64,000 bases of DNA, taken from contig MJGA01000014.1 in NCBI GenBank assembly GCA_001910725.1, forward strand, positions 124,001 to 188,000, in the 5' to 3' direction. The notes under the pieces were generated by a model. That model did not search any database. It was not told the origin of the DNA and saw nothing but the letters and a program-made list of their open reading frames with translations. This DNA is from Phanerodontia chrysosporium. Its lineage: Eukaryota > Basidiomycota > Agaricomycetes > Polyporales > Phanerochaetaceae. Shown piece after piece: positions 14,443 to 33,832 of this stretch (position 1 is its first letter; the number at the start of each line of letters is the position of its first letter). The translations under genes were made by a program, and so were the position numbers.

Positions 14443-14459
14443 TGTCACAGTTTTTCGTC

Positions 14460-14479
14460 TTAACCCTTAGGGTTAGGGG
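14460..14479 (+). promoter_or_regulatory. Telomere-like motif in the LTR U3
   Basis: TTAACCCTTAGGGTTAGGGG holds two TTAGGG units on one strand and an inverted AACCC half. The same motif is in all four LTRs. It could be bound by telomere-repeat proteins of the Rap1/Taz1/Tbf1 type; that is inference. Confidence 0.5.
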
Positions 14480-14556
14480 CAGCAGGTGACAGAAGCGATT
14501 ACTCCGAACTGTGACATGCAGAAGCGCTGGAGTGACAGCCCTAGGCTCGGGGCTGG

Positions 14557-14592
14557 TCACGTGATACGGCGGTCACGTGATGCGCACACGTG
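14557..14592 (+). promoter_or_regulatory. E-box cluster (two TCACGTGA palindromes and one CACGTG)
   Basis: TCACGTGA at 14557-14564 and 14573-14580, exactly 16 bp apart, and CACGTG at 14587-14592. Such sites bind bHLH factors, including SREBP, Cbf1 and Pho4 types. Fission-yeast Tf2 elements are known to be activated by the SREBP Sre1, so a similar stress control is a reasonable guess. The same cluster is in the 5' LTR of the minus-strand element (31586-31621). Confidence 0.6.
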
Positions 14593-14860
14593 CGGTATCC
14601 CAGGGTCACATGGTCGAAGGTCTAGAAGCAGGCAAGGGTCTGGAAGCGCCAAGACACTCCGGAATGGACTAGAAAGCCCTGGAGGTCTCTGGACAGGTCC
14701 GGACAGTGCTGGAACGTTCTGGAGGTTTCTGGGACATCGTAGGAACATTTAGGAACGTGTAGGAGAATGTAGGAATGCCTGTAGGGCACTAGCCAATAGC
14801 GTAGTAGGTATTAGATAGCTAGGACCCTGAACACCGGTCCCTGGGGACCTGGTGCACATG

Positions 14861-14868
14861 TATATAAA
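14861..14868 (+). promoter_or_regulatory. TATA box of the plus-strand chromovirus
   Basis: TATATAAA lies 33 bp before the AGCTTCAATCT at 14894, which is the sequence complementary to the primer site. That spacing supports 14894 as the RNA 5' end. Confidence 0.75.
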
Positions 14869-15044
14869 CCCTGAGGGCTGGGGGTGCCTCCCCAGCTTCA
14901 ATCTCATCGCATCTCACCTCTCTAGTCTCTATACCTCGTCTTCAAGCTTGGCTACACCCCTTGTAGTCCAAGTAAACCTTTGCCAGTGAGTATTGCTGGT
15001 TGGTTTGGTGTATAGGCGCTAGGGCAGCGCATTTTTGTGATAGA

Positions 15045-15055
15045 AGATTGAAGCT
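15045..15055 (+). other. Self-primer binding site of the chromovirus
   Basis: AGATTGAAGCT, starting 2 bases after the 5' LTR, is the exact reverse complement of 14894-14904 (AGCTTCAATCT), the predicted first 11 nt of the RNA. Tf1/sushi-type elements prime reverse transcription by folding the RNA 5' end onto this site instead of using a tRNA. No tRNA-like 18-mer site is apparent. Confidence 0.8.
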
Positions 15056-15351
15056 AGCCAACCTAATCCACCTTTGGTGGCCTAGGTTATTGCTTTGGGT
15101 TCTGGGGGCTTGTTTGAACAAGTGCTTTTGCGCTTTGTTCAGTTTTCTGCCGATCCACAGGCGTAAGTGGGCACTATAGTACCTTTTTAGGTACAGACAG
15201 GGGAACGTGGTGTAACCCACCTCAGAGGGCTTTGCCTGCGGACGAGTAACCCCTGTTGTAGTGCTGGACTAAGGGTGTAATACCCTGTCCAACCAGTTTT
15301 AGCTGCGTGGCGTGGAAACCCGCAGTAATACCCCTTTCTCTTCGTTGAGGG

Positions 15352-16164
15352 TTGGCGGGCAGGAAAGCCTTGCGCTTTGCCTGTGTGGAGAAGTTTTATG
15401 GCTTGTGTACACAGGCTGACCCGTGTTTACTAGTGCCTAAAGCTGCTAGGAACCGTTTTGTCCTTGCTAAGGACGAGAGCTCTGGCAAACCCTTGCTTGA
15501 GCGCATCAAGATCTCGAACCTTCACCGCTTCAAAGACGTTGGGAAGCCGCGCCCTGCGTACAAACCTCGCACTACACCCTACACCCCTGTCCCTGGTCGT
15601 CGTGAAAGGCTTGCTCGTGAAGCAGACTTGAACGACTTCAAGCACCAGCTTCAGCTCGAAGACTATCGCAACGAACAGCGCAAGCGCCGCCTACTCGATC
15701 GCATCGCGAACGCCCCTCCCCCTCTACCCCTCATCGAACGTATTGAACCTCCCCCTACTCCCCCTATCGAAGTCAAACCCATTCCCAAAGACCTTCGCTT
15801 TCACACCAACACTCAGGTCCATCAGCTGCGCGACTACGGACGAAAGTTCAACGGCGCCCTTAACCACTTGGGTCCGTTCTTTCAGAAGCTAGACGAGCAG
15901 CGTTTTCGAGTTGGGTTGACTGAACACGAGCTCTACACCTTGGGCTTGTTCAAGGAGAGGTTCGACAACATTCGCAAACACCTTCAGACCATCGTCGAGA
16001 CGAAGGAGTACACCACGAGGGAGTGGAAGAAGATTTCGAGGGATTTGAAGAAGGCAGGCGCACATAGCTTCGCTGAGCTTAAGCCACGCTTCGCTGAGCA
16101 TTGCAGGGAGCTGATTCAGGAGTTGGGTGAAGATTGGTTGTTTTTGGAGAAGAACCTCGATTAG
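15352..16164 (+). CDS. ORF1 of the chromovirus: 270 codons with no methionine, upstream of gag
   Basis: An open frame follows a TGA at 15346-15348 and runs to TAG at 16162-16164, 30 bp before the gag ATG. It has no ATG codon in frame, so any start must be non-AUG; the first candidate is TTG at 15352, with G at -3 and +4. The product would be basic and Pro-rich in the middle (PPPLPLIERIEPPPTP) with a helical C-terminal half (LYTLGLFKERFDNIRKHL). Codon use looks coding. The minus-strand copy has the same ORF with one base missing in a C run. The function is unknown; it may be an extra structural protein or a leader ORF governing gag translation. Confidence 0.6.
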   Translation: MAGRKALRFACVEKFYGLCTQADPCLLVPKAARNRFVLAKDESSGKPLLERIKISNLHRFKDVGKPRPAYKPRTTPYTPVPGRRERLAREADLNDFKHQLQLEDYRNEQRKRRLLDRIANAPPPLPLIERIEPPPTPPIEVKPIPKDLRFHTNTQVHQLRDYGRKFNGALNHLGPFFQKLDEQRFRVGLTEHELYTLGLFKERFDNIRKHLQTIVETKEYTTREWKKISRDLKKAGAHSFAELKPRFAEHCRELIQELGEDWLFLEKNLD

Positions 16165-16193
16165 TTTTTGTATCTGCGCGTTTTTGAATCAAG

Positions 16194-17774
16194 ATGTCGC
16201 TCAATCCAAATCCTGTTGACTTTGGTTTGCGTTCTGCTGCGAGTTCAAGTGGTACGGACCCTTGGGGAGCGTTAGAACTCGGCTCTATGGCTGAGGGAGG
16301 CCCTACCCCAGTTTTGGCCGCTGCGCCGCTTTCGACCTCTTACGAAGAGTACAGCCAGTCATGGGTACAAGCCGCTCAGGAAGGACTGACTCCTGGCGAC
16401 TTCAAGGCCCTCGTTGACAGCCTGGGTAACTGGGTAAAGGCTGAGATAGCTCAAGTAAGGTCGGAAATGGGTTCAGAAGTCCTTCGCTTGAAGGAAGCCC
16501 TTCGCAAACGCAAAACCGAGGCCAAGACACTTCAGGAGCAGATAGACACTCTTGAGCAGACTAGACAGCACTTGTCTGCGCAGATAGCAGAGGCTCAGAA
16601 CCAAAATCGCGTTTTGCAGAACGCTATGCAGGTGCTGAAGCAGGAGAACGAGAGCTTGAAAGTGTTGGTTCAGCAAGGCACTAGTGGAGGCAACATTGGG
16701 TTGTCTCAGTCTTTGTTCCCTACCATGAAGGAGCCTGACACCTTTAATGGTGATAAGGCTAGCAAGCTGGATGACTGGCTCGAGTCGATGGCACTCTGGT
16801 TGCGCCACCGTGGCGTAATGGACGACGAAAAGAAGATAGAGACGGCGATGACTTACCTGCGAGGTTCAGCAAAGAAGGTCATGCAAGAGTACTTCGACAA
16901 GGTGGCAGACTCAAAGCCCCTTGGTACTTGGACCAACTTTGTGAACGAACTCCAGAAAGGATTCCAACAGACCGACAAGAAGGACAGGGCAAGGGCAGAG
17001 TTTGAGCAGCTTGTCAGCAAGAAAGGAACGAACGAGAAGACTTTCAATGAGTTTGCTGCTCGTTTCCGTTCGCTGGCTCGCCAAACTGGCTTCTCCAACG
17101 AGGAACTGTTGGTCAAAGCCTATGCCCATACCCCTCGTGCCGCCGCCGATGTACTGGCAGCCCGTGGTCGTGCTCAGTGGGCTACGACCTGGGATGGTTG
17201 GTTGAAGGATGTTCAGGAGATTCTGCAGGATCAACGTCTCTTGACGGGCACCGTACTCTCTGGACAGCCTCAGTCGTCGAAAGACCCTGACGCTATGGAT
17301 GTCGACGCCTTGAAGAAGGGCTCAGCCCAGGGTAAAGGCAAGACAGCCAAAGTTCAGAAGGTTGCCATGTCGTTCGAGGAGGCGAAGAAGAAAGGCTGCT
17401 GCGCTCAGTGTGGAGGCAAAGGCCACATCGCCAAGGAGTGTCCATCGAAGAAGAACAACTCAGGTTCTTCGACGTCGTCGAGTAAAACCACCAATGCACC
17501 GGTGGCCAGTTCATCAAAGGCTTCGTCTTCAAAGGGAAAGGAGAAGGATAAGGGCTCTCGCCACACAAAGAACAGTGTGCGCGAGGTGTACGCCAGCGAC
17601 TCGGAGAGATTCCAGGAGGTAGCCTCTGACGAGGAGTCGAGCTCGGATAGCTCAGAAGAAGAAGATACCCCCAAGACCAAGCAAAAGAAGAAGTCGTCTT
17701 CGAAGGAGAAGGCGCAGAAGATTAACCGCGTGGTATTCTCAGACGATGAGGATTTCCTGCAGGGACCGATGTAG
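16194..17774 (+). CDS. gag: Gag (capsid/nucleocapsid) of the plus-strand chromovirus
   Basis: 526 residues from ATG at 16194. The N-terminal part is Ser/Ala-rich, followed by a coiled coil (about residues 75-160; ALRKRKTEAKTLQEQIDTLE). The central retrotransposon gag domain follows (LDDWLESMALWLRHRGV, AMTYLRGSAKKVM, EFAARFRSLARQTGF). A CCHC zinc knuckle, CAQCGGKGHIAKEC, sits at about residues 403-416, and the tail is Ser/Asp/Glu- and Lys-rich. Its ATG is the first or second in the predicted transcript. The stop overlaps the protease frame by 25 nt in the -1 frame. Nearly identical to the gag at 28405-29985. Confidence 0.95.
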   Translation: MSLNPNPVDFGLRSAASSSGTDPWGALELGSMAEGGPTPVLAAAPLSTSYEEYSQSWVQAAQEGLTPGDFKALVDSLGNWVKAEIAQVRSEMGSEVLRLKEALRKRKTEAKTLQEQIDTLEQTRQHLSAQIAEAQNQNRVLQNAMQVLKQENESLKVLVQQGTSGGNIGLSQSLFPTMKEPDTFNGDKASKLDDWLESMALWLRHRGVMDDEKKIETAMTYLRGSAKKVMQEYFDKVADSKPLGTWTNFVNELQKGFQQTDKKDRARAEFEQLVSKKGTNEKTFNEFAARFRSLARQTGFSNEELLVKAYAHTPRAAADVLAARGRAQWATTWDGWLKDVQEILQDQRLLTGTVLSGQPQSSKDPDAMDVDALKKGSAQGKGKTAKVQKVAMSFEEAKKKGCCAQCGGKGHIAKECPSKKNNSGSSTSSSKTTNAPVASSSKASSSKGKEKDKGSRHTKNSVREVYASDSERFQEVASDEESSSDSSEEEDTPKTKQKKKSSSKEKAQKINRVVFSDDEDFLQGPM

Positions 17775-18208
17775 AGTCTGCGACATCTGGTCCGTTTTTA
17801 GATTTCCTTTACCCTCCCGACTCAGTAGAATGTATTAAATCAGTTTTGGAATCGAGAAAAGTCTCTAGTTTGCCCTCTAAATCGAGCTTTATCGTTCCAG
17901 TAACTTTGAGTCAGGGTAAGGAAATCAGAGTGCAGACTACCGCGCTGGTTGATTCAGGGGCCTATGCTGTGTTCATTAGCCATCGCTTCGTCAAGAAGCA
18001 TAAGCTGAAGACGAACCAGCTGGCCAGGGAGATACGCGTTTACAACGCAGATGGCTCCAGGAACAAGTGTGGCAGTATTGAGGAATACGCTTGGCTCGAC
18101 GTAGCCGTAGGGGACCATATCTCCAGACAAGCATGCCTCATTACAGATCTGGGTGGAAAGGACGTTTCCTCGGCCTTAGCTGCTCGAAGAAGTCTAGTCA
18201 AAGAGTAG
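17750..18208 (+). CDS. pol: Retropepsin (protease) region of the plus-strand chromovirus
   Basis: The frame opens after a TGA at 17747-17749 in the -1 frame relative to gag, overlaps gag by 25 nt and has no ATG near its beginning. ALVDSGAYAVFISHRFVKK is the aspartic protease active site (DSG) and flap-proximal segment. After the shared GGKD at about 18160 the sequence leaves the intact copy: the conserved LGFSYLKKHNPR segment is replaced by a diverged stretch ending in TAG at 18206-18208. The protein is therefore a C-terminally altered protease domain only. No canonical X-XXY-YYZ slippery heptamer was found in the overlap. Confidence 0.8.
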   Translation, partial: GFPAGTDVESATSGPFLDFLYPPDSVECIKSVLESRKVSSLPSKSSFIVPVTLSQGKEIRVQTTALVDSGAYAVFISHRFVKKHKLKTNQLAREIRVYNADGSRNKCGSIEEYAWLDVAVGDHISRQACLITDLGGKDVSSALAARRSLVKE

Positions 18209-19015
18209 ACTGGGATGAGCATGGGCAGCATAAGCAGAACTCGAAGAACTAATGAACTAGGACTTCGAGGAGGAAAGAGCAGAGCTTAGGCTCTAACTGT
18301 CGCTTACACCACCCCAGATTGGCCACAGTTTTCGGCAGTTGAACTGCCAGAAGGGAGGAATCAAGGATTCCAGCGTTGTGCCCCTCAGTTTCGGCTATCT
18401 GACAGAACTTTGGAGCCTCTTAACTATTGAGGACCAAAGTAGGGCAAGTACTACTACTCAGAATGCCCAGTATTGTGCCATTCATTTGACGAGTTAGTCA
18501 GATAGTGCAGGTCCCTAGGCACCGAGGTACTGGTACCTTTGGGGAGGGCTCCACAACTTAGCTTCGGGGTACTGAAGCAGAAGTTTTCGGTTGCTTGCCG
18601 AGCAAGTGACAGGGCAGTGTCTCTCAGCCTGAAGATGTTTGCAACACCTAGTTGAAGTTAGCATTCAGGGCATAATCCCAGATACTTCAGGGTGTTGAGA
18701 GTGACTGCAGCAGTTGGGTCAAAAGGGCTTTTTACCTATATTGGCTATGCATAGACTCTTGGAGTCAGCCTACACACATTGGAATTGGACGCACTAGCCT
18801 GAGAAGGGGCTGATCCTATGTCCAGGAGGCCATATCCTGAATTGGGGGTAGATTGCCATAATCGTGGAAACTACATTGAGAAGCCAGAATCTTCCACGAT
18901 ACGAGCCCAAGGCAATCTGGCCATTCAGTGATAAGGGACACTAGCAAGAGGCTAGCAGAAGGATCAATACAAGCCCAGTTGGATGACAGAGTCATCAAGT
19001 GTTATGGACCACGAG
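18164..19015 (+). pseudogene. Decayed ~850-bp remnant replacing RT/RNase H
   Basis: The left flank (to about 18163) and right flank (from about 19016) are nearly identical to the intact element. Between them, 850 bp replace about 1860 bp. Both edges still align at low identity with the intact copy (for example GAATTGGGGGTAGATTG near 18838 matches the RNase H-integrase linker), but stops occur in all frames and the RT YLDD region is missing. It looks like a segment from an old, degenerate relative joined by template switching. Confidence 0.7.
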
Positions 19016-20899
19016 AAAGGACCAAGAGAGTTCGGGAAGGACTTAGCGGAATGGCACCTCGAGGACGGGCTACTACTGCACCGAGGCAAGGTGTATGTGC
19101 CCAAGGACGACAAGATTAGGGCGGATCTACTCAAGTTACACCACGACTTCCCTGGGGCTGGACACCCTGGACGATGGAAGACGTTGGAGTTGCTGTCGCG
19201 CAACTACTGGTGGCCTGGAATGTCAGTTTATGTCAAGAAGTACGTCGCAGGTTGCGAAGTTTGCCAGTCGCATAAAAACGTCAACCAGAAGCCTGCTGGC
19301 CTGCTACAACCGAACGAGGTTCCGTCGGAACCCTGGGAGATAATCTCATGCGATATGATCACGGACTTGCCTGAGTCGGACGGTTACAACGCTATCTTCG
19401 TAGTCGTTTGCCGCTTAACCAAGCGAGCACATTTCCTCCCCATCACCAAGGAGTTTTCAGCCAAGGATCTGGGAAATTTGCTCTATGAGCGTATTTGGCC
19501 TTTGCACGGCCTACCCAGACAGATCATTTCGGATAGAGGAACGCAGTTCGCCGCAAAACTCTTCCAGGAATGGTGCAGACTCTTGGGAATCAAGTCAGCA
19601 ATGACTACAGCGTTTCACCCTCAGGCGGACGGTCAGACGGAGCGAGTTAATCAGTCATTGGAGCAGTATCTGCGCTGCTACACAAGCTTCAGGCAGGACG
19701 ACTGGGCGTACCTTTTGCCCTCTGCCGAGTTTGCGTACAATAACCAGGCGCATGAAAGCACCAAGAACTCGCCATTCTTCGTCGAATATGGCCGTCATCC
19801 ACGCATGTTCCCAGAGCAGGACCGTGTTACAAGGTTGTCAGAACTGGACGACTGGACAAAGCTTAGACAGGAGGCCCAAGATCAGGCGAAAGCCGCGCTC
19901 GTGCTGGCTGCAGAGCGAATGAAGTGGTACTACGACCAGGGTAAATCAGAACCCTTGTTCAAGGTCGGAGACCGTGTTTGGCTTGACGCAAAGGATCTGA
20001 ACCTTCGGGTTCCCTCCAAGAAACTGGCACCAAAGCGAGTAGGCCCTTACGAGATCGTAGAACAGCTGGGACCGGTCACCTTCAAGCTGAAGTTACCAGC
20101 CCATGTGAAGATTCACCCGGTCTTCCACGCAAGCAAACTCACGAAGCACGTCGAGGATGAGGTTGCCAATCGCACGCGCAAACCCCTACCACCCATTCGT
20201 GTGGGTGATGACGAGGAGTACGAGGTCGAGCAGATCGTAGATGCACAGCCAGACTCTAAAGGCCGTGTTATGTACCGAGTACGGTGGAGAGGCTACGATG
20301 AGCATAGCGACACATGGGAATACTTGCCCAATCTCAAGCACGCTATGGCGAAGGTCAAACAATTCCACAAGAAATACCCAGATGCGCCGAGGGCAATTTC
20401 CCTTCTGCAACGCCACCACGACGAGGAGGATGAGTTTTTCGTGCGCGAACTCGCGCTACTCCAATCTTGGGGAGCAGACGACCAGTTCGAGGTCGAGCTC
20501 ATGAACAAGGATGCAAAACTTCCCTCACGTGGCTCGCCAGAAAGCGCAGGGTTGGATCTTTTCATCACGGAAGACCTTACGCTCAAGCCCCATGATCGCA
20601 AGCTAGCGCCAACTGGCCTTCGAATGTGTACTCCACCAGGTACCTACGCTCGAGTCGCACCACGGAGTGGCCTTAGCCTCAGAGGCATCGACATAGGAGC
20701 AGGCGTTATTGACCGAGATTATCGAGGAGAGCTCAAAATTCTACTCATCAACAACTCGCCCGACACCTTTACATTCCACAAGGGTGATCGTGTCGCTCAA
20801 CTCGTGCTCGAAAGAATCTCCTACGCCGAACCAACTCCGGTTTCTCGCCTCGACTCAACCATTCGCAGCAGCGATGGTTTTGGCTCCACTGGTATTTAG
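19004..20899 (+). CDS. pol: Integrase-chromodomain-dUTPase polyprotein fragment of the plus-strand chromovirus
   Basis: An open frame from the ATG at 19004 (MDHEKGPREFGKDL) to TAG at 20897-20899. It contains the integrase zinc-binding HHCC part (HHDFPGAGHPG ... CEVCQSHK), the DD35E core (SCDMITD, SDRGTQF, DGQTERVN), a GPY/F-like segment, a chromodomain (EYEVEQIVDA ... YRVRWRGYDEHSDTWEYLPN) and a C-terminal dUTPase with all five motifs. In the intact copy this is the C-terminal half of Pol. Here it lacks upstream RT and has its own possible ATG, so if expressed it would be a free integrase-dUTPase. Nearly identical to residues 573-1199 of the minus-strand Pol. Confidence 0.85.
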   Translation: MDHEKGPREFGKDLAEWHLEDGLLLHRGKVYVPKDDKIRADLLKLHHDFPGAGHPGRWKTLELLSRNYWWPGMSVYVKKYVAGCEVCQSHKNVNQKPAGLLQPNEVPSEPWEIISCDMITDLPESDGYNAIFVVVCRLTKRAHFLPITKEFSAKDLGNLLYERIWPLHGLPRQIISDRGTQFAAKLFQEWCRLLGIKSAMTTAFHPQADGQTERVNQSLEQYLRCYTSFRQDDWAYLLPSAEFAYNNQAHESTKNSPFFVEYGRHPRMFPEQDRVTRLSELDDWTKLRQEAQDQAKAALVLAAERMKWYYDQGKSEPLFKVGDRVWLDAKDLNLRVPSKKLAPKRVGPYEIVEQLGPVTFKLKLPAHVKIHPVFHASKLTKHVEDEVANRTRKPLPPIRVGDDEEYEVEQIVDAQPDSKGRVMYRVRWRGYDEHSDTWEYLPNLKHAMAKVKQFHKKYPDAPRAISLLQRHHDEEDEFFVRELALLQSWGADDQFEVELMNKDAKLPSRGSPESAGLDLFITEDLTLKPHDRKLAPTGLRMCTPPGTYARVAPRSGLSLRGIDIGAGVIDRDYRGELKILLINNSPDTFTFHKGDRVAQLVLERISYAEPTPVSRLDSTIRSSDGFGSTGI

Positions 20900-20921
20900 G
20901 CTTCACCAGGAGGTTCAGCTA

Positions 20922-20934
20922 GAATTGGGGGTAA
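20922..20934 (+). other. Polypurine tract
   Basis: GAATTGGGGGTAA directly precedes the 3' LTR, in the position of the plus-strand primer. The same sequence precedes the 3' LTR of the other copy (24238-24250, minus strand). Confidence 0.7.
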
Positions 20935-21533
20935 TGTCACAGTTTTTCGTCTTAACCCTTAGGGTTAGGGGCAGCAGGTGACAGAAGCGATTACTCCGAA
21001 CTGTGACATGCAGAAGCGCTGGAGTGACAGCCCTAGGCTCGGGGCTGGTCACGTGATACGGCGGTCACGTGATGCGCACACGTGCGGTATCCCAGGGTCA
21101 CATGGTCGAAGGTCTAGAAGCAGGCAAGGGTCTGGAAGCGCCAAGACACTCCGGAATGGACTAGAAAGCCCTGGAGGTCTCTGGACAGGTCCGGACAGTG
21201 CTGGAACGTTCTGGAGGTTTCTGGGACATCGTAGGAACATTTAGGAACGTGTAGGAGAATGTAGGAATGCCTGTAGGGCACTAGCCAATAGCGTAGTAGG
21301 TATTAGATAGCTAGGACCCTGAACACCGGTCCCTGGGGACCTGGTGCACATGTATATAAACCCTGAGGGCTGGGGTGCCTCCCCAGCTTCAATCTCATCG
21401 CATCTCACCTCTCTAGTCTCTATACCTCGTCTTCAAGCTTGGCTACACCCCTTGTAGTCCAAGTAAACCTTTGCCAGTGAGTATTGCTGGTTGGTTTGGT
21501 GTATAGGCGCTAGGGCAGCGCATTTTTGTGATA
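20935..21533 (+). repeat. 3' LTR of the plus-strand chromovirus
   Basis: 599 bp, identical to 14443-15042 except for one G fewer in the run near 21372. Followed by the target duplication ACCGC at 21534-21538. Confidence 0.95.
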
Positions 21534-23637: not shown

Positions 23638-24237
23638 TATCACAAAAATGCGCTGCCCTAGCGCCTATACACCAAACCAACCAGCAATACTCACTGGCAA
23701 AGGTTTACTTGGACTACAAAGGGTGTAGCCAGGCTTGAAGACGAGGTATAGAGACTAGAGAGGTGAGATGCGATGAGATTGAAGCTGGGGAGGCACCCCC
23801 AGCCCTCAGGGTTTATATACATGTGTACCAGGTCCCCAGGGACCGGTGTTCAGGGTCCTAGCTATCTAATACCTACTACGCTATTGGCTAGTGCCCTACA
23901 GGCATTCCTACATTCTCCTACACGTTCCTAAATGTTCCTACGATGTCCCAGAAACCTCCAGAACGTTCCAGCACTGTCCGGACCTGTTCAGAGACCTCCA
24001 GGACTTTCTAGTCCATTCCGGAGTGTCTCGGCGCTTCCAGACCCTTGCCTGCTTCTAGACCTTCGACCATGTGACCCTGGGATACCGCACGTGTGCGCAT
24101 CACGTGACCGCCGTATCACGTGACCAGCCCCGAGCCTAGGGCTGTCACTCCAGCGCTTCTGCATGTCACAGTTCGGAGTAATCGCTTCTGTCACCTGCTG
24201 CCCCTAACCCTAAGGGTTAAGACGAAAAACTGTGACA
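23638..24237 (-). repeat. 3' LTR of the minus-strand chromovirus
   Basis: 600 bp; identical to 31136-31735 except for one A/G change near the RNA start region (GAGACT versus GAGGCT on the plus strand). Confidence 0.95.
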
Positions 24238-24272
24238 TTACCCCCAATTCTGGCTGAACCTCCTGGTGAAGC

Positions 24273-27200
24273 CTAAATACCAGTGGAGCCAAAACCATCG
24301 CTGCTGCGAATGGTTGAGTCGAGGCGAGAAACCGGAGTTGGTTCGGCGTAGGAGATTCTTTCGAGCACGAGTTGAGCAACACGATCACCCTTGTGGAATG
24401 TAAAGGTGTCGGGCGAGTTGTTGATGAGTAGAATTTTGAGCTCTCCTCGATAATCTCGGTCAATAACGCCTGCTCCTATGTCGATGCCTCTGAGGCTAAG
24501 GCCGCTCCGTGGTGCGACTCGAGCGTAGGTACCTGGTGGAGTACACATTCGAAGGCCAGTTGGCGCTAGCTTGCGATCATGGGGCTTGAGCGTAAGGTCT
24601 TCCGTGATGAAAAGATCCAACCCTGCGCTTTCTGGCGAGCCACGTGAGGGAAGTTTTGCATCCTTGTTCATGAGCTCGACTTCGAACTGGTCGTCTGCTC
24701 CCCAAGATTGGAGTAGCGCGAGTTCGCGCACGAAAAACTCATCCTCCTCGTCGTGGTGGCGTTGCAGAAGGGAAATTGCCTTTGGCGCATCTGGGTATTT
24801 CTTGTGGAATTGTTTGACCTTCGCCATAGCGTGCTTGAGATTGGGCAAGTATTCCCATGTGTCGCTATGCTCATCGTAGCCTCTCCACCGTACTCGGTAC
24901 ATAACACGGCCTTTAGAGTCTGGCTGTGCATCTACGATCTGCTCGACCTCGTACTCCTCGTCATCACCCACACGAATGGGTGGTAGGGGTTTGCGCGTGC
25001 GATTGGCAACCTCATCCTCGACGTGCTTCGTGAGCTTGCTTGCGTGGAAGACCGGGTGAACCTTCACATGGGCTGGTAACTTCAGCTTGAAGGTGACCGG
25101 TCCCAGCTGCTCTACGATCTCGTAAGGGCCTACTCGCTTTGGTGCCAGTTTCTTGGAGGGAACCCGAAGGTTCAGATCCTTTGCGTCAAGCCAAACACGG
25201 TCTCCGACCTTGAACAAGGGTTCTGATTTACCCTGGTCGTAGTACCACTTCATTCGCTCTGCAGCCAGCATGAGCGCGGCTTTCGCCTGATCTTGGGCCT
25301 CCTGTCTAAGCTTCGTCCAGTCGTCCAGTTCTGACAACCTTGTAACACGGTCCTGCTCTGGGAACATGCGTGGATGACGGCCATATTCGACGAAGAATGG
25401 CGAGTTCTTGGTGCTTTCATGCGCCTGGTTGTTGTACGCAAACTCGGCAGAGGGCAAAAGGTACGCCCAGTCGTCCTGCCTGAAGCTTGTGTAGCAGCGC
25501 AGATATTGCTCCAATGACTGATTAACTCGCTCAGTCTGACCGTCTGCCTGAGGGTGAAACGCTGTAGTCATTGCTGACTTGATCCCCAGGAGTCTGCACC
25601 ATTCCTGGAAGAGTTTCGCGGCGAACTGCGTTCCTCTATCCGAAATGATCTGTCTGGGTAGGCCGTGCAAAGGCCAAACACGCTCATAGAGCAAATTTCC
25701 CAGATCCTTGGCTGAAAACTCCTTGGTGATGGGGAGGAAATGTGCTCGCTTGGTTAAGCGGCAAACGACTACGAAGATAGCGTTGTAACCGTCCGACTCA
25801 GGCAAGTCCGTGATCATATCGCATGAGATTATCTCCCAGGGTTCCGACGGAACCTCGTTCGGTTGTAGCAGGCCAGCAGGCTTCTGGTTGACGTTTTTAT
25901 GCGACTGGCAGACTTCGCAGCCTGCGACGTACTTCTTGACGTAAACCGACATTCCTGGCCACCAGTAGTTGCGCGACAGCAACTCCAACGTCTTCCATCG
26001 TCCAGGGTGTCCAGCCCCAGGGAAGTCGTGGTGTAACTTGAGTAGATCCGCCCTAATCTTGTCGTCCTTGGGCACATACACCTTGCCTCGGTGCAGTAGT
26101 AGCCCGTCCTCGAGGTGCCATTCCGCTAAGTCCTTCCCGAACTCTCTTGGTCCTTTCAACATCAGGTCTTTGTACGACTTGGTGACTTCGTCGTCCAGCA
26201 GGGCTTTTCTGATCCTTTCTAGCAGTTTGCTATCGTCCACTATCGATGAATGGGTTGGTTGCATGGCTCGAATCGCGAAATATTCTGGCTTCAAAAGGAC
26301 TTTTTCACGATTGTCGCAATCCACCCCCAATTCATGATCTGGCCTCCTGGACATTGGATCAGCCCGCTTCATCGTCTTTCCAGGCTTGTGCTCCAACTTG
26401 AAGTGGAAACGTGTGAGGAAAAGACTCCAACGTGCTTGGCGTCGCGTCAAGTCTTGCGCCTTGCGGAAATAGGTCAAATTCTGGTGATCTGACCATATGT
26501 CGAATGGTAGAGGGTGTCCCTCCAAGTGGTGGCGCCATTCCTTCAATGCGCGGATGATGGCTAGCATCTCCTTGTCGTATATCTCGTAGTTGCGCTCATG
26601 TACGCCTAGCGCCTTGGAGTAAAACGCGACAGGGTGCCAAAGGCCATCCTCGCCCAGTTGCTCAAGTACAGCCCCCGTAGCAAAGTCTGACGAATCGCAT
26701 TCGAGCCTAAAAGGGTGCTCGTCGTCTGGAATCTTGAGAATAGGCGCAGTAGTGAACGCTCTTTTGAGTGTATCGAAGGCATCCTGCTGCTCAGGCCCCC
26801 ATTCCCACTCTTTGCCTTTGCGGGTAAGCTCTGACAATGGGCGAACAATCTTGCCAAAGTCTCGAATAAACCGTCGGTAGAAGTTAGCAAAACCCAGGAA
26901 AGCCTGGACATCTTTGACCCTTTTGGGTATGGGCCAAGATAAAACGCCATCTACCTTCGATGGATCCATCTGAACCGACCCCTTGCTGATGATCATTCCG
27001 AGGTATTCAATGCTATCCGTCTCGAAGAAGCATTTTTCTGGCTTAGCGAACAGGTCATTGTCGCGTAGCCGCTGCAATACCTCGCGAACTAATCGCCGAT
27101 GGTGGTCCAAGTCATTCGTGAAGATGAGAATGTCGTCTAGGTAGACCATGACATGCCCTTCTCGAATCAGATCGTCGAGAATATGGTTCATCATGCGCTG

Positions 27201-27872
27201 AAAGGTTGCTGGTGCATTGCTGAGGCCGAAGAACATCACTGTAGGTTCGTATAAACCGAAAGGTGTGATGAAGGCCAGCTTCCACTCGTCTCCTTCCTTG
27301 ATTCTGACGTTGTTATACCCCCATCTAAGGTCAATCTTGGTGTATATACTAGCCTTAGATAGTCGATCTATAAGGTCTGAGATCTTGGGTATAGGGAAGC
27401 GGTCTTTCTTAACGACTTCGTTCAGCTTTCTGTAGTCCTGCACCAAGCGCAATGAACCGTCCTTCTTCTTCACGAAAAAGACTGGTGCTGCCAGCGGGGA
27501 TTTACTCGGTCTGATGTATCCCTTGGCGAGATTCTCCTGAATCCACTCGTCCAGAGAATTCCTCTCTTCTGGCGACAGCGAGTAATTACGAGCTGGTCGA
27601 GGTAGGGTAGCTCCGTCGATAAACTCGACAGCGTGGTCGTAAGGCTTTCGTACGGGTAACCGTTCGCTTGCACGCTTCGAAAACACGTCCCCATAGTCTT
27701 GATACTGTGCAGGGACAAGCTGCTCCCAGCCCTCGATTCCCTCCAGCGAACGAATACTGCACATCGCTGCGATCTTCCGGCAAGTTAATGCCAAAACGCG
27801 GCCATCTGGGGTGGAAGGGTCGACCCACTGGAGCCAAGGCTCCTCTTCTTCCTCCTCGAAGTCCTCATCCAT
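24273..27872 (-). CDS. pol: Pol polyprotein: RT, RNase H, integrase, chromodomain, dUTPase
   Basis: 1199 residues from the first ATG of the open frame at 27872 (the frame itself opens further upstream, just after the protease). RT is about residues 110-300, with YLDD at 244-247. RNase H is about 388-500. Integrase has HHCC around 613-655, D685, D745 and E781 (DD35E). The chromodomain is 972-1027 (aromatic-rich VRWRGYDEHSDTWEYLP), which in chromoviruses directs insertion to heterochromatin marks. The dUTPase is 1061-1199 with motifs SAGLDL, PRSGLS, GVIDRDYRGEL, GDRVAQLV and SDGFGSTG. Protease is normally fused upstream, but here one base is missing between HNPR and IDWDKGEW. Confidence 0.95.
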   Translation of the reverse strand: MDEDFEEEEEEPWLQWVDPSTPDGRVLALTCRKIAAMCSIRSLEGIEGWEQLVPAQYQDYGDVFSKRASERLPVRKPYDHAVEFIDGATLPRPARNYSLSPEERNSLDEWIQENLAKGYIRPSKSPLAAPVFFVKKKDGSLRLVQDYRKLNEVVKKDRFPIPKISDLIDRLSKASIYTKIDLRWGYNNVRIKEGDEWKLAFITPFGLYEPTVMFFGLSNAPATFQRMMNHILDDLIREGHVMVYLDDILIFTNDLDHHRRLVREVLQRLRDNDLFAKPEKCFFETDSIEYLGMIISKGSVQMDPSKVDGVLSWPIPKRVKDVQAFLGFANFYRRFIRDFGKIVRPLSELTRKGKEWEWGPEQQDAFDTLKRAFTTAPILKIPDDEHPFRLECDSSDFATGAVLEQLGEDGLWHPVAFYSKALGVHERNYEIYDKEMLAIIRALKEWRHHLEGHPLPFDIWSDHQNLTYFRKAQDLTRRQARWSLFLTRFHFKLEHKPGKTMKRADPMSRRPDHELGVDCDNREKVLLKPEYFAIRAMQPTHSSIVDDSKLLERIRKALLDDEVTKSYKDLMLKGPREFGKDLAEWHLEDGLLLHRGKVYVPKDDKIRADLLKLHHDFPGAGHPGRWKTLELLSRNYWWPGMSVYVKKYVAGCEVCQSHKNVNQKPAGLLQPNEVPSEPWEIISCDMITDLPESDGYNAIFVVVCRLTKRAHFLPITKEFSAKDLGNLLYERVWPLHGLPRQIISDRGTQFAAKLFQEWCRLLGIKSAMTTAFHPQADGQTERVNQSLEQYLRCYTSFRQDDWAYLLPSAEFAYNNQAHESTKNSPFFVEYGRHPRMFPEQDRVTRLSELDDWTKLRQEAQDQAKAALMLAAERMKWYYDQGKSEPLFKVGDRVWLDAKDLNLRVPSKKLAPKRVGPYEIVEQLGPVTFKLKLPAHVKVHPVFHASKLTKHVEDEVANRTRKPLPPIRVGDDEEYEVEQIVDAQPDSKGRVMYRVRWRGYDEHSDTWEYLPNLKHAMAKVKQFHKKYPDAPKAISLLQRHHDEEDEFFVRELALLQSWGADDQFEVELMNKDAKLPSRGSPESAGLDLFITEDLTLKPHDRKLAPTGLRMCTPPGTYARVAPRSGLSLRGIDIGAGVIDRDYRGELKILLINNSPDTFTFHKGDRVAQLVLERISYAEPTPVSRLDSTIRSSDGFGSTGI

Positions 27873-27970
27873 AGGTTCTTCGAGCTCTGCTTGCGCTACT
27901 TGAGCCTTGTGGCTGGTAAAGCGACAAGAATCTGGGCATCTGGAGTACTTCCACTCGCCCTTATCCCAAT

Positions 27971-28430
27971 CTATCTCGGATTATGCTTCTTCAAGTAGCT
28001 AAAGCCGAGGAACATGTCCTTTCCACCCAGATCTGTAATGAGGCATGCTTGTCTGGAGACATGGTCCCCTACGGCTACGTCGAGCCAAGCGTACTCCTCA
28101 ATACTGCCACACTTGTTCCTGGAGCCATCTGCGTTGTAAACGCGTATCTCCCTGGCCAGCTGGTTCGTCTTCAGCTTATGCTTCTTGACGAAGCGATGGC
28201 TAATGAACACAGCATAGGCCCCTGAATCAACCAGCGCGGTAGTCTGCACTCTGATTTCCTTACCCTGACTCAAAGTTACTGGAACGATAAAGCTCGATTT
28301 AGAGGGTAAACTAGAGACTTTTCTCGATTCCAAAACTGATCTAATACATTCTACTGAGTCGGGAGGGTAAAGGAAATCTAAAAACGGACCAGATGTCGCA
28401 GACTCTACATCGGTCCCTGCAGAAAATCCT
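27971..28430 (-). CDS. pol: Retropepsin region of the minus-strand chromovirus
   Basis: An open frame in the -1 frame relative to gag, overlapping the gag end and reading to HNPR at 27971. It contains ALVDSGAYAVFISHRFVKK (DSG active site) and LGFSYLKKHNPR, the usual end of the fungal Ty3 protease domain. One added base near 27974 would continue it into the RT ORF, so protease and Pol are likely one polyprotein in the active element. No ATG near the start, so frameshifting or reinitiation after gag must express it. Confidence 0.85.
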
Positions 28431-29985
28431 CATCGTCTGAGAATACCACGCGGTTAATCTTCTGCGCCTTCTCCTTCGAAGACGACTTCTTCTTGTGCTT
28501 GGTCTTGGGGGTATCTTCTTCTTCTGAGCTATCTGAGCTCGATTCCTCGTCAGAGGCTACCTCCTGGAATCTCTCCGAGTCACTGGCGTACACCTCGCGC
28601 ACGCTGTTCTTCGTGTGGCGAGAGCCCTTATCCTTCTCCTTTCCCTTTGAAGGCGAAGCCTTTGACGAACTGGCCACCGGTGCATTGGTGGTTTTACTCG
28701 ACGACGTCGAAGAACCTGAGTTGTTCTTCTTCGATGGACACTCCTTGGCGATGTGGCCTTTGCCTCCACACTGAGCGCAGCAGCCTTTCTTCTTCGCCTC
28801 CTCGAACGACATGGCAACCTTCTGAACTTTGGCTGTCTTGCCTTTACCCTGGGCTGAGCCCTTCTTCAAGGCGTCGACATCCATAGCGTCAGGGTCTTTC
28901 GACGACTGAGGCTGTCCAGAGAGTACGGTGCCCGTCAAGAGACGTTGATCCTGCAGAATCTCCTGAACATCCTTCAACCAACCATCCCAGGTCGTAGCCC
29001 ACTGAGCACGACCACGGGCTGCCAGTACATCGGCGGCGGCACGAGGGGTATGGGCATAGGCTTTGACCAACAGTTCCTCGTTGGAGAAGCCAGTTTGGCG
29101 AGCCAGCGAACGGAAACGAGCAGCAAACTCATTGAAAGTCTTCTCGTTCGTTCCTTTCTTGCTGACAAGCTGCTCAAACTCTGCCCTTGCCCTGTCCTTC
29201 TTGTCGGTCTGTTGGAATCCTTTCTGGAGTTCGTTCACAAAGTTGGTCCAAGTACCAAGGGGCTTTGAGTCTGCCACCTTGTCGAAGTACTCTTGCATGA
29301 CCTTCTTTGCTGAACCTCGCAGGTAAGTCATCGCCGTCTCTATCTTCTTTTCGTCGTCCATTACGCCACGGTGGCGCAACCAGAGTGCCATCGACTCGAG
29401 CCAGTCATCCAGCTTGCTAGCCTTATCACCATTAAAGGTGTCAGGCTCCTTCATGGTAGGGAACAAAGACTGAGACAACCCAATGTTGCCTCCACTAGTG
29501 CCTTGCTGAACCAACACTTTCAAGCTCTCGTTCTCCTGCTTCAGCACCTGCATAGCGTTCTGCAAAACGCGATTTTGGTTCTGAGCCTCTGCTATCTGCG
29601 CAGACAAGTGCTGTCTAGTCTGCTCAAGAGTGTCTATCTGCTCCTGAAGTGTCTTGGCCTCGGTTTTGCGTTTGCGAAGGGCTTCCTTCAAGCGAAGGAC
29701 TTCTGAACCCATTTCCGACCTTACTTGAGCTATCTCAGCCTTTACCCAGTTACCCAGGCTGTCAACGAGGGCCTTGAAGTCGCCAGGAGTCAGTCCTTCC
29801 TGAGCGGCTTGTACCCATGACTGGCTGTACTCTTCGTAAGAGGTCGAAAGCGGCGCAGCGGCCAAAACTGGGGTAGGGCCTCCCTCAGCCATAGAGCCGA
29901 GTTCTAACGCTCCCCAAGGGTCCGTACCACTTGAACTCGCAGCAGAACGCAAACCAAAGTCAACAGGATTTGAATTGAGCGACAT
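28405..29985 (-). CDS. gag: Gag of the minus-strand chromovirus
   Basis: 526 residues from the ATG at 29985, which is the first ATG after the predicted RNA start at 31284. Same plan as the gag at 16194-17774: coiled coil, gag domain, CCHC knuckle (CAQCGGKGHIAKEC) and acidic/basic tail. Only a few substitutions separate the two (for example one Asn/Ser near the N-terminus). Confidence 0.95.
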   Translation of the reverse strand: MSLNSNPVDFGLRSAASSSGTDPWGALELGSMAEGGPTPVLAAAPLSTSYEEYSQSWVQAAQEGLTPGDFKALVDSLGNWVKAEIAQVRSEMGSEVLRLKEALRKRKTEAKTLQEQIDTLEQTRQHLSAQIAEAQNQNRVLQNAMQVLKQENESLKVLVQQGTSGGNIGLSQSLFPTMKEPDTFNGDKASKLDDWLESMALWLRHRGVMDDEKKIETAMTYLRGSAKKVMQEYFDKVADSKPLGTWTNFVNELQKGFQQTDKKDRARAEFEQLVSKKGTNEKTFNEFAARFRSLARQTGFSNEELLVKAYAHTPRAAADVLAARGRAQWATTWDGWLKDVQEILQDQRLLTGTVLSGQPQSSKDPDAMDVDALKKGSAQGKGKTAKVQKVAMSFEEAKKKGCCAQCGGKGHIAKECPSKKNNSGSSTSSSKTTNAPVASSSKASPSKGKEKDKGSRHTKNSVREVYASDSERFQEVASDEESSSDSSEEEDTPKTKHKKKSSSKEKAQKINRVVFSDDEDFLQGPM

Positions 29986-30014
29986 CTTGATTCAAAAACG
30001 CGCAGATACAAAAA

Positions 30015-30826
30015 CTAATCGAGGTTCTTCTCCAAAAACAACCAATCTTCACCCAACTCCTGAATCAGCTCCCTGCAATGCTCAGCGAAGCGTGGCTTAA
30101 GCTCAGCGAAGCTATGTGCGCCTGCCTTCTTCAAATCCCTCGAAATCTTCTTCCACTCCCTCGTGGTGTACTCCTTCGTCTCGACGATGGTCTGAAGGTG
30201 TTTGCGAATGTTGTCGAACCTCTCCTTGAACAAGCCCAAGGTGTAGAGCTCGTGTTCAGTCAACCCAACTCGAAAACGCTGCTCGTCTAGCTTCTGAAAG
30301 AACGGACCCAAGTGGTTAAGGGCGCCGTTGAACTTTCGTCCGTAGTCGCGCAGCTGATGGACCTGAGTGTTGGTGTGAAAGCGAAGGTCTTTGGGAATGG
30401 GTTTGACTTCGATAGGGGAGTAGGGGGAGGTTCAATACGTTCGATGAGGGGTAGAGGGGGAGGGGCGTTCGCGATGCGATCGAGTAGGCGGCGCTTGCGC
30501 TGTTCGTTGCGATAGTCTTCGAGCTGAAGCTGGTGCTTGAAGTCGTTCAAGTCTGCTTCACGAGCAAGCCTTTCACGACGACCAGGGACAGGGGTGTAGG
30601 GTGTAGTGCGAGGTTTGTACGCAGGGCGCGGCTTCCCAACGTCTTTGAAGCGGTGAAGGTTCGAGATCTTGATGCGCTCAAGCAAGGGTTTGCCAGAGCT
30701 CTCGTCCTTAGCAAGGACAAAACGGTTCCTAGCAGCTTTAGGCACTAGTAAACACGGGTCAGCCTGTGTACACAAGCCAGAAAACTTCTCCACACAGGCA
30801 AAGCGCAAGGCTTTCCTGCCAGCCAA
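30015..30826 (-). CDS. ORF1 of the minus-strand chromovirus (Met-less; one-base deletion)
   Basis: The same 270-codon, methionine-free ORF as 15352-16164. It is open from about 30826 to 30420, then loses frame at a C run (four instead of five C on the coding strand, 30415-30418), and the remainder (30311-30015) is open in the shifted frame. No ATG occurs in any frame of this strand between 31284 and 29985. The deletion is in a homopolymer and may be a consensus error. The function is unknown. Confidence 0.6.
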
Positions 30827-31122
30827 CCCTCAACGAAGAGAAAGGGGTATTACTGCGGGTTTCCACGCCACGCAGCTAAAACTGGTTGGACAGGGTATTA
30901 CACCCTTAGTCCAGCACTACAACAGGGGTTACTCGTCCGCAGGCAAAGCCCTCTGAGGTGGGTTACACCACGTTCCCCTGTCTGTACCTAAAAAGGTACT
31001 ATAGTGCCCACTTACGCCTGTGGATCGGCAGAAAACTGAACAAAGCGCAAAAGCACTTGTTCAAACAAGCCCCCAGAACCCAAAGCAATAACCTAGGCCA
31101 CCAAAGGTGGAGTAGGTTGGCT

Positions 31123-31133
31123 AGCTTCAATCT
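31123..31133 (-). other. Self-primer binding site, minus-strand chromovirus
   Basis: AGATTGAAGCT on the minus strand, 2 bases inside the 5' LTR boundary, pairs exactly with 31274-31284, the predicted RNA 5' end (TATA box at 31310-31317). Same arrangement as in the other copy. Confidence 0.8.
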
Positions 31134-31135
31134 TC

Positions 31136-31735
31136 TATCACAAAAATGCGCTGCCCTAGCGCCTATACACCAAACCAACCAGCAATACTCACTGGCAAAG
31201 GTTTACTTGGACTACAAAGGGTGTAGCCAGGCTTGAAGACGAGGTATAGAGGCTAGAGAGGTGAGATGCGATGAGATTGAAGCTGGGGAGGCACCCCCAG
31301 CCCTCAGGGTTTATATACATGTGTACCAGGTCCCCAGGGACCGGTGTTCAGGGTCCTAGCTATCTAATACCTACTACGCTATTGGCTAGTGCCCTACAGG
31401 CATTCCTACATTCTCCTACACGTTCCTAAATGTTCCTACGATGTCCCAGAAACCTCCAGAACGTTCCAGCACTGTCCGGACCTGTTCAGAGACCTCCAGG
31501 ACTTTCTAGTCCATTCCGGAGTGTCTCGGCGCTTCCAGACCCTTGCCTGCTTCTAGACCTTCGACCATGTGACCCTGGGATACCGCACGTGTGCGCATCA
31601 CGTGACCGCCGTATCACGTGACCAGCCCCGAGCCTAGGGCTGTCACTCCAGCGCTTCTGCATGTCACAGTTCGGAGTAATCGCTTCTGTCACCTGCTGCC
31701 CCTAACCCTAAGGGTTAAGACGAAAAACTGTGACA
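31136..31735 (-). repeat. 5' LTR of the minus-strand chromovirus
   Basis: 600 bp. It carries the E-box cluster (CACGTG at 31586-31591; TCACGTGA at 31598-31605 and 31614-31621), the telomere-like motif and the TATA box at 31310-31317. Differs from the plus-strand element's LTRs at several positions (for example TGTACC versus TGCACC). Confidence 0.95.
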
Positions 31736-31740
31736 CTCTT

Positions 31741-33832
31741 CCGCCTCATCACGTACAACGCAACAAACATTGGACGTCCAAACTGCTTTAATGAACACTA
31801 CCCGTCTGGCACCATGGACACTGCTCGAATGCATGTCCTTCTCCGCACTGCAGCCCTCGAACACATCTGCCGCATTCAACCTGTGCGACCCTCTCAAGGT
31901 GAACGTTTCTACATTCGCTCGCTACTGCAACGTCGACCGACACGAAGCTTCATTGACTTACTCACTGTTGATGGCATCCAGCTTCCCTCCTTTCAACATG
32001 CCGCATCTGCGCTTGGCCTGTTCGCGGAAGTGAACGAAGGCGAGCTTGCAATGCGAGAGGCCATCGATTTGTTGAGCACACCGCATCAGCTACGTGTTCT
32101 CTTTGCTCATTTACTGGTCAATGATTGCATCGCAACCCCTGCGACACTCTGGGACGGCATCGTCGACTTCCTTGCCCGTGACTTCGTCATTGTCCACAAT
32201 GGTCACACTGCTCTCGGTGTTAATCATGCTCTTCAACAGATATCCCTCCTGCTCGAAGAGCATGGGAAAACTCTATCTGACTACGGCCTCCCCGAACCCA
32301 TCACCTATGCTGCCGAAGTTGAGCATGAACTACAGAGATGGTATCCGTCTCTCGACGCTATTGCCTCTCGTGCCTCGACCTCCCTGTCGTTGCTGAACAC
32401 TGAACAGCGTGCAATCTTTGACATCGTCACCACTGCTGTCGCAAACGACACGTCTCTGCTCGCCTTCGTCGATGGCAAGGCCGGTCGAGGAAAGACCTTT
32501 CTCGTCAACACAATCTGCGACTTTCTTCGTGCTCAACAGCATGTTGTTCTCACAACTGCCACATCTGCCTACGCAGCTCAATTGTATCCGGGAGGACGCA
32601 CAACACACTCCACGTTCAAGGTGCTCTTCTACAGTCTGACCCTGCTTCTAAGTCATTCGACGCTCATCGCCCTTTATTAGGTACCTGTTAACAACAACAA
32701 CGAGTTTCTCAAATCTCCGATCAGTGCACACTCCTCCCGTGCAGAGCTTCTTCGTCACGCAAAGCTTATCATTTGGGACGAAGCACCAATGGCAAACAAG
32801 GCGGTTCTCGCATGCGTCGACGCTACGCTGCGCGACGTTTGTGAAAACCAACATCTGCCTTTCGGTGGCAAGGTTGTCATCCTTCTCGGTGACTTCCGCC
32901 AGACCGCCCCCGTTATAAGAGGTGGTCGAAAGGCTGACATCATTCAGGCGTCCATCAAAACTTCTTCTCTCTGGCCTCTGTTTACTGTCTTTCAACTCAC
33001 TCTTCCCATACGAAACGCACAGGACCCCCAGTTCGCAGCGTTTGTCGACGACATTGGCGACGGTGCGGGGCCTGAGGTCTCTTTACATCACCTCGACCAC
33101 GCATCTTCCAGCCATGATCTCATCGACTTCGTCTTCCCCCTCTCGCTACTTCGGGATCCTGCGGCATGTTCAAGACGTGCCATTCTCGCACCCACCAACC
33201 GTCAGGTCGATACGTACAACGACGCGATTGTGCTGAACGTTCACGGTGATTCCCGCACATATCTCGCTGCAGACTCTCTGAAAGAGGCCGACGACGCCAA
33301 CGTTGACTCCCCAGCTGAAGCAACCGGTCTTCTCGACTACGCCGCGCGGCACACGCCCCCTGGTCTTCCCCCACACGCACTGTCTGTCAAAACAAACGCT
33401 GTTTACCGCCTTCTTCGCAACTTCTCCATTGACCGCGGCTTAGTCAAGAACGTCCGTGTCGTTGTCACCGCTATCGGAGATCGTCTTATCACCGTTAGGA
33501 TCCTACGCCAGAGCTCGTCACATCTCGCTGACACCGAGAGTCACGAAGAGTTCCTCATCCCACGCATCACGTTCACGCACGAGCTACATTCAGGATATAC
33601 TCTGCTTCGTCGACAGTACCCACTCGCCCTCGCGTACTCAACTACATTTCACAGCTGCCAAGGCCTCACGCTCGACCGCGTTGGCGTCGATCTCACACAG
33701 CCTGTGTTCTCCCACGGCCAGCTGTACACCGCGCTCTCGCGGATCCGCCACCGTTCTCATGCGAAGCTCCTCCTTCCACAGGTAGACAGTAACGTGACAA
33801 CAAATGTAACTTACTCAGAACTTCTCGTGTAA
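31741..33832 (+). CDS. Helitron Pif1-like helicase (C-terminal part of the Rep/helicase gene)
   Basis: An open reading frame continuing from TYSEYFTLF at 23637 into RLITYNATNIGRPNCF, through a linker domain to the helicase. Walker A is GKAGRGKT, Walker B is LIIWDEAPM, followed by ILLGDFRQTAPV, ILAPTNRQVDTYN and the C-terminal TTFHSCQGLTLDRVGVDL and YTALSRIRHRSH, all typical of Helitron/Pif1 helicases. One intron, 32621-32680 (60 bp), joins STFK to VPVNNN. The stop is at 33830-33832. This third is free of frameshifts and stops, so the Helitron is young. It would unwind DNA during rolling-circle transposition. Confidence 0.9.

Follow-up and report, generated by a model that had tools for sequence, protein, structure and literature searches.

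Introduction

The question raised by this locus is how a retrotransposon leader of 1.3 kb can contain a long, methionine-free open reading frame (ORF1) and almost no AUG, and still give access to both ORF1 and the gag gene behind it. The leader is found in a 64,000-nt stretch of the genome of Phanerodontia chrysosporium (39.0 Mb, 145 contigs), taken from contig MJGA01000014.1 (positions 124,001 to 188,000, forward strand), which is referred to in its entirety as the window. One long terminal repeat (LTR) element is present twice in the window, as a plus copy (14443-21533) and a minus copy (23638-31735), with a within-copy LTR identity of 99.8% and 5-bp duplications flanking both copies.

Analysis of these two copies, of related leaders elsewhere in the genome, and of ORF1 homologs favors a two-way decoding of the leader in this Tf1-like, basidiomycete-type element, at a probability that we place at approximately 0.7. 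Between the 5' LTR and gag, this self-priming Ty3/gypsy element would carry ORF1 as a conserved accessory gene. In the spliced RNA, a donor in U5 (14986) would be joined to an acceptor at 15433, and the resulting A|TG junction would constitute the ORF1 start codon. Excision of the intron would take the primer-binding site along, leaving the spliced RNA as messenger RNA (mRNA) only, and the unspliced RNA would also be the genome, on which ribosomes would scan 1.3 kb, including the intron and ORF1, without encountering an AUG and start at gag. Scanning would be the reason that intron and ORF1 have been nearly purged of AUG and that the ORF1 protein lacks internal methionine. Both splicing itself and access to gag by scanning are deductions that we draw from the sequence.

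Results

Depletion of ATG in the leader

In the plus copy, the leader extends from the predicted RNA start (A14894) to the gag ATG (16194) and contains a single ATG, at 15398, in 1,300 nt, and the leader of the minus copy (29985..31284, minus strand), in which ORF1 is frameshifted, has no ATG over 1,299 nt. On the reverse strand, each leader holds 12 ATG. A preliminary description of this DNA had reported an ATG-free minus leader, a plus leader with one ATG and an ATG-rich opposite strand, all of which is borne out, but its estimate of some 20 ATG expected by chance was too high by a factor of about two, since a first-order Markov (dinucleotide) model predicts 9.6 for the plus and 9.1 for the minus leader. 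Simulated sequences as low in ATG as those observed amounted to 0.1% for the plus leader and 0 of 5,000 for the minus leader, and ATG had the lowest observed-to-expected ratio of all 64 trinucleotides in both leaders. Taken segment by segment the deficit is weak, both in the predicted intron described below, with 1 versus 4.0 expected in the plus copy (P 0.08) and 0 versus 3.4 in the minus copy (P 0.03), and in the ORF1 segment, with P values of 0.016 (plus) and 0.011 (minus). Synonymous shuffling detected no depletion of out-of-frame ATG in gag and pol (P 0.81 and 0.83, respectively).

A homology search of the genome with ORF1 yielded at least 114 matched stretches (150 of the 226 candidates were scored). 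Sixty of these 114, comprising strong and weak matches, were fetched as leaders and supplemented with the two window leaders to a total of 62 sequences, designated family 1. Three partial or rearranged sequences (L050, L051, and L055) were excluded from the variant counts, leaving 59 alignable rows, window copies included, of which 54 were young and 5 diverged (more than 3% different, gaps included; L043, L053, L054, L057, and L060). A 40-nt deletion alone places L043 among the diverged rows; L054 (2.6% substitution divergence) and L057 (4.6%) are partial as well.

In the aligned columns, 51 of the 54 young copies had no ATG at all and the other 3 had one each; foreign inserts of approximately 0.6 kb with 9-10 ATGs in the young copies L062 and L068 were masked and fall outside this count. 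The diverged rows contained 7 (L053), 3 (L054), 6 (L057), 7 (L060), and 0 (L043) ATGs. The 181 distinct substitutions of the young copies were expected to generate 7.6 ATG gains, and 2 distinct gains were found in their actual context (P 0.019). When scored in majority context, 3 gains were counted in the young copies, and the diverged rows had 18 among their 287 substitutions (Fisher P 0.02). These counts and gains in young versus diverged copies argue that the active lineage is kept ATG-clean and that decayed copies acquire ATGs. The substitution spectrum was biased as well: C-to-T and G-to-A changes made up 177 of the 287 distinct substitutions in the diverged leaders, and the young copies leaned likewise (116 of 181), which is like the outcome of methylation decay or repeat-induced point mutation (RIP).

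ORF1 and its homologs

ORF1 of the plus copy (15349-16164, plus strand) is an open frame without methionine that stops 29 nt before the gag ATG. The earlier account of a methionine-free frame of 270 codons holds for this copy but not for the minus copy, which has one base fewer and in which the frame is split into two overlapping pieces (30829-30287 and 30431-30015); likewise, the closeness of the ORF1 end to gag stands, with the spacing measured as 29 rather than 30 nt. From 15433 onward, 62 synonymous and 46 nonsynonymous variants were counted, a ratio to expectation of 0.28, and the other frames gave 1.18 and 2.52. The preceding segment (15352..15432, plus strand) had 3 synonymous and 10 nonsynonymous variants (ratio 1.42), differs from the downstream part (Fisher P 0.036), and has no counterpart in the homologs; this upstream extension of the open frame is probably untranslated as protein. 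These variants give ORF1 the appearance of a genuine gene that is subject to purifying selection from 15433 on. All 243 codons from GTG15433 were present in 42 of the 62 sequences, the others being shorter, longer, broken, or incomplete.

Three protein searches retrieved 29 proteins, including P0001, whose matched part is identical to the window protein. The named homologs are from Obba rivulosa, Postia/Rhodonia placenta, and Phlebia brevispora, all of which are Polyporales. In the alignment of 23 homologs, the codon corresponding to GTG15433 is a methionine that acts as the start in 18, and a valine in 4 (P0001, P0003, P0008, and P0011), as DNA with GTG would give; P0001 starts at this codon. 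The MPK start was also recognized by eye in 5 of 6 further homologs. Preceded by A14985, the exon 2 part of ORF1 (15434..16164, plus strand) would encode a 243-residue basic protein with an isoelectric point of 9.9 and the N-terminus MPKAARNRF. Internal methionine occurred 3 times in 2,984 residues of 13 homologs, 12 of which are more distant, versus 33 times in 3,161 residues of 15 others. Both Obba ORF1 entries are 'partial' models at NCBI, as expected if the ORF1 start codon is not in the DNA.

No Pfam match was found for the window ORF1 at a threshold of 0.1, the domain families detected in a scan of 20 homologs included none common to more than two, and sequence and fold searches returned no convincing relative. 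The predicted structure is helical (mean predicted local distance difference test score 79; predicted template modeling score 0.48), and a role as a basic helical RNA- or chromatin-binding regulator is a tentative guess at best.

A predicted intron and the ORF1 start codon

The sole A|GTRAGT donor and the sole CTRAY-YAG|TG acceptor in the leader delimit a predicted intron of 448 nt (14986..15433, plus strand; GTGAGT ... CTGACCCGTGTTTACTAG), and the minus copy has the same predicted intron, also of 448 nt, with the same donor and acceptor (30745..31192, minus strand). Predicted exon 1 (14894..14985, plus strand) would comprise the untranslated R-U5 region and end in the A of the start codon, such that the 14985/15434 junction joins A|TG into GCCATGCC, in good context and in frame with ORF1. 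The first AUG in the predicted spliced RNA is that of ORF1 and the next is that of gag. The donor at 14986, recognized by motif only, lies upstream of gag and of the primer-binding site at 15045. As the latter is inside the intron, the coordinates imply that spliced RNA should not self-prime.

In Markov shuffles, the joint occurrence of a donor within the leading 160 nt and an acceptor at exactly the predicted position had a chance of approximately 3e-6, for motifs that were picked after viewing. All 59 rows keep A|GTRAGT, and 57 of them keep AG|TG. In L060, which is 17% diverged by substitution, CCA|GTAAGT and CTGAC..CCTAG|TG are retained, the donor having been altered to an equally good GTAAGT. 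Moreover, one of the three introns of the host actin gene reads GTGAGTATCC..CTGACATTCAATCTCAG with CTGAC...CAG, matching the splice motifs of the leader. No genomic copy of the spliced leader form was found; this is expected if spliced RNA cannot be reverse transcribed, and proves nothing. Together, the motifs suggest that splicing probably creates the ORF1 start codon. The preliminary description had named an ATG made by splicing as its main alternative, and this alternative fits best, with a predicted splice that joins U5 to ORF1 and retains ORF1.

A sister family in the same genome

A divergent family in the same genome (family 2) has the same order of self-priming match, ORF1 homolog, and gag. 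It accounts for 38 of 107 matches by matched range. Seven of its loci were read (L101-L103 and L105-L108); L104, read alongside them, belongs to family 1. All seven have a GTAAG[TC] donor that precedes the self-priming site and TACTAAC..GACTAAG directly before the gag ATG (TACTAACATACCTTTTGACTAAG), and with TACTAAC as branch site and an acceptor at that position gag could be reached by splicing. Family-2 ORF1 has 5-6 internal methionines and the leader has 13-18 ATG, about the chance number (six of the seven loci were measured, L102 being without RNA-start motif). In family 2, ORF1 and gag each appear to be preceded by a splice acceptor of their own.

The longest run common to the leaders of both families, which are otherwise very different, is an 18-nt block, ATCCACAGGCGTAAGTGG (15153..15170, plus strand), identical to L106:982-999, as compared with at most 13 nt in 200 shuffled pairs. 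It holds a donor-like GTAAGT at 15163, and its 16-nt core occurs in 48 of 60 family-1 and 7 of 7 family-2 loci. The block may be an alternative donor, a U1-holding site on unspliced RNA, or a packaging signal; the two-way decoding model works without it.

Organization of the element copies

The 5' LTR of the plus element (14443..15042, plus strand) forms a direct repeat with 20935-21533 (99.8% identical) and is flanked by the 5-bp target duplication ACCGC. It includes a TATA-box-like TATATAAA (14861..14868, plus strand), read in the sequence and with a role that is presumed, and the predicted RNA 5' end with the 11-nt self-primer AGCTTCAATCT (14894..14904, plus strand). The reverse complement of the latter, the self-priming primer-binding site AGATTGAAGCT (15045..15055, plus strand), is located directly after the LTR and within the predicted intron, and the complementarity between the two is 11 nt, no longer. 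Such pairing of an RNA 5' end, here a predicted one, with an LTR-adjacent site is as in the Tf1/sushi group.

The gag gene (16194..17774, plus strand) matches Retrotrans_gag (PF03732, 4.3e-08) and, weakly and below the cut-off, a zinc knuckle (PF00098). Pol of the minus copy contains RVT_1, RT_RNaseH, H2C2, rve, and Chromo above cut-offs, as well as an SH3_Tf2-1 domain; this order of reverse transcriptase (RT), RNase H, and integrase, with a chromodomain, is that of Ty3/gypsy chromoviruses, and the SH3_Tf2-1 domain is only suggestive of a place in the Tf1/sushi group. The chromodomain is followed by a C-terminal dUTPase (24279-24662, minus strand; PF00692, 3.4e-38). The minus copy combines a long pol frame with a broken ORF1. 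The plus copy has no RT-bearing open reading frame and, by repeat spacing (6,492 versus 7,498), falls short of the minus copy by approximately 1.0 kb. The gag, protease, and pol genes are in different frames with short overlaps of approximately 25 and 10 nt (17750-17774; 27971-28429), which suggests programmed frameshifts or further splicing. PIF1-like helicase pieces (31712-33832) adjoin the minus copy, and the retroelements may therefore reside within a Helitron-like element.

Discussion

Selection against AUG that allows scanning ribosomes to reach gag, as suggested in the preliminary description, is supported by the near-zero ATG numbers across the family, by the 2 gains versus 7.6 expected, by the methionine-poor homologs, and by the undepleted leaders of family 2, in which gag has an apparent splice acceptor. 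Two checks named in that description gave zero ATG in 51 of 54 young family members and a nonsynonymous-to-synonymous ratio of 0.28 in ORF1 from 15433. The near-absence of AUG from intron and ORF1 suggests that unspliced RNA is scanned to gag, as an AUG there would be irrelevant if only spliced RNA were translated. We lean, by a modest degree, toward the broader view that one segment is both scanned leader and gene, with a splice that builds the split AUG and drops the primer site, thereby converting genome into mRNA; that gag can still be translated from the unspliced form because the intron and 0.73 kb of coding sequence have lost their AUGs, which leaves a protein devoid of internal methionine; and that family 2 resolves this conflict by a second acceptor, at gag.

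Several observations weigh against the two-way decoding model. The conservation of splice sites among near-identical copies from one genome is weak evidence, the other two of the three host actin introns have different donor and branch motifs, and the predicted 448-nt intron is far longer than host actin introns (51-59 nt, n=3). Splicing from 15163 to 15434 would give no ATG and would keep the primer site, which the model leaves unexplained. With majority-context scoring, the 3 ATG gains in young copies correspond to P 0.055, and out-of-frame ATG in ORF1 alone (0 versus 1.8 expected by synonymous shuffling) are not significantly depleted (P 0.096). Among the homologs, P0010 starts at an internal methionine, further in than the junction codon, and P0003 has an in-frame methionine upstream of the junction, so that some relatives are not AUG-free; P0005, P0008, and P0011 have one internal methionine each. 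Homologs that start with methionine could also carry a genomic ATG.

An unlikely alternative, albeit the best placed, is that spliced RNA yields both proteins, with ribosomes that terminate at the ORF1 stop reinitiating at gag 29 nt downstream; this accords with the short gap and with ORF1 and gag AUGs being the only ones in the predicted spliced RNA up to the gag start, but would entail no selection on AUG in ORF1 or in the intron, where the counts were 0 versus 3.4 (P 0.03) and 1 versus 4.0 (P 0.08). Improbable in our view is that GTG15433 acts as a near-cognate start on unspliced RNA and produces MPKAARNRF without any splicing. The N-terminus would then be as in the homologs, and P0001 begins at this GTG, but this reading gives no account of the single donor, of the branch motif, or of the AG that precedes TG, and GTG is a weak start codon in eukaryotes. 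Equally improbable appears a depletion that arose without selection, either through base composition or because the copies spread recently from a single ATG-poor founder: the copies are near-identical, hence not independent, but 9-10 ATG are expected at matched dinucleotides, the element's own gag and pol show no depletion, and the scarcity of internal methionine extends to 12 more distant homologs (3 in 2,984 residues in that set of 13 versus 33 in 3,161 in the 15 others).

The preliminary description proposed that ORF1 is translated from unspliced RNA starting at a near-cognate codon, TTG15352 for example, and that ribosomes get to gag by leaky scanning past it. A frame that is open from 15349 and the lack of upstream AUGs in all but a few copies agree with this, but the segment 15352-15432 is unconstrained (10 nonsynonymous and 3 synonymous variants, against 46 and 62 downstream; 1.42 versus 0.28, P 0.036) and without counterpart in the homologs, which begin at 15433 with methionine in 18 of 23, making this start very improbable. 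Least plausible of all is a second splice from U5 to the AAG just before the gag ATG, by which gag, too, would come from spliced RNA, as such an acceptor is apparent in all seven family-2 loci but the 60 nt before the window gag contain, by eye, no CTRAY branch motif and only the AAG, and the AUG depletion would be left unexplained.

If the two-way decoding model is true, a constraint of cap-and-scan translation shapes the amino-acid make-up of a protein, which has no internal methionine, and a simple element divides one RNA into genome and mRNA. It would also flag an accessory protein family of fungal retrotransposons, whose start codon would be absent from the DNA.

Comparison with known elements

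Each on its own, self-priming, leader splicing, and extra open reading frames ahead of gag are known features; the following comparisons pertain to portions of the publications cited. Literature searches turned up no AUG-purged gene in a scanned leader combined with a splice-made start, a statement that does not extend to the 'additional ORF' drawn in a PMC2864245 figure.

Tf1 and Tj1 of fission yeasts are self-priming (PMC4600332), and as in these elements the RNA 5' end pairs with a site just past the 5' LTR, here over 11 nt. The Tf2-1-like SH3 domain and chromodomain after integrase are a further likeness to Tf1/Tj1. Unlike in Tf1/Tj1, there is a 1.3-kb AUG-poor leader with ORF1 and a predicted intron spanning the primer-binding site, the frames of gag, protease, and pol differ, and a dUTPase forms the end of pol. 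PosPlaTy3-4 of Postia placenta likewise has a dUTPase at the C terminus of Pol (PMC2864245), and ORF1 homologs are annotated in Postia; the portion of that report on PosPlaTy3 makes no mention of splicing of these elements or of AUG depletion.

Among elements with accessory genes, the Drosophila MDG1 group has sORF1/sORF2 between LTR and gag (PMC11952523), similarly placed to ORF1; in the pertinent part of that publication, long RNAs of MDG1 are reported without evidence for splicing, and no methionine-free frames are reported. Rice Retrosat2 carries ORF0, an extra open reading frame of unclear function upstream of gag-pol (PMC3485330), also before gag as in the present element; Retrosat2 is a plant element, for which the corresponding text reports no splice-made start or methionine depletion. 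Drosophila gypsy has unspliced genomic RNA and a spliced RNA for env (PMC4276936), and the present element would similarly use spliced RNA for another gene; unlike in gypsy, this gene precedes gag, which means that ribosomes must scan through it on unspliced RNA. Finally, in BARE1 splicing separates the translated from the replicated RNA pool (PMC3735527), but the spliced RNA of BARE1 encodes Gag, whereas in the element described here it would encode ORF1.

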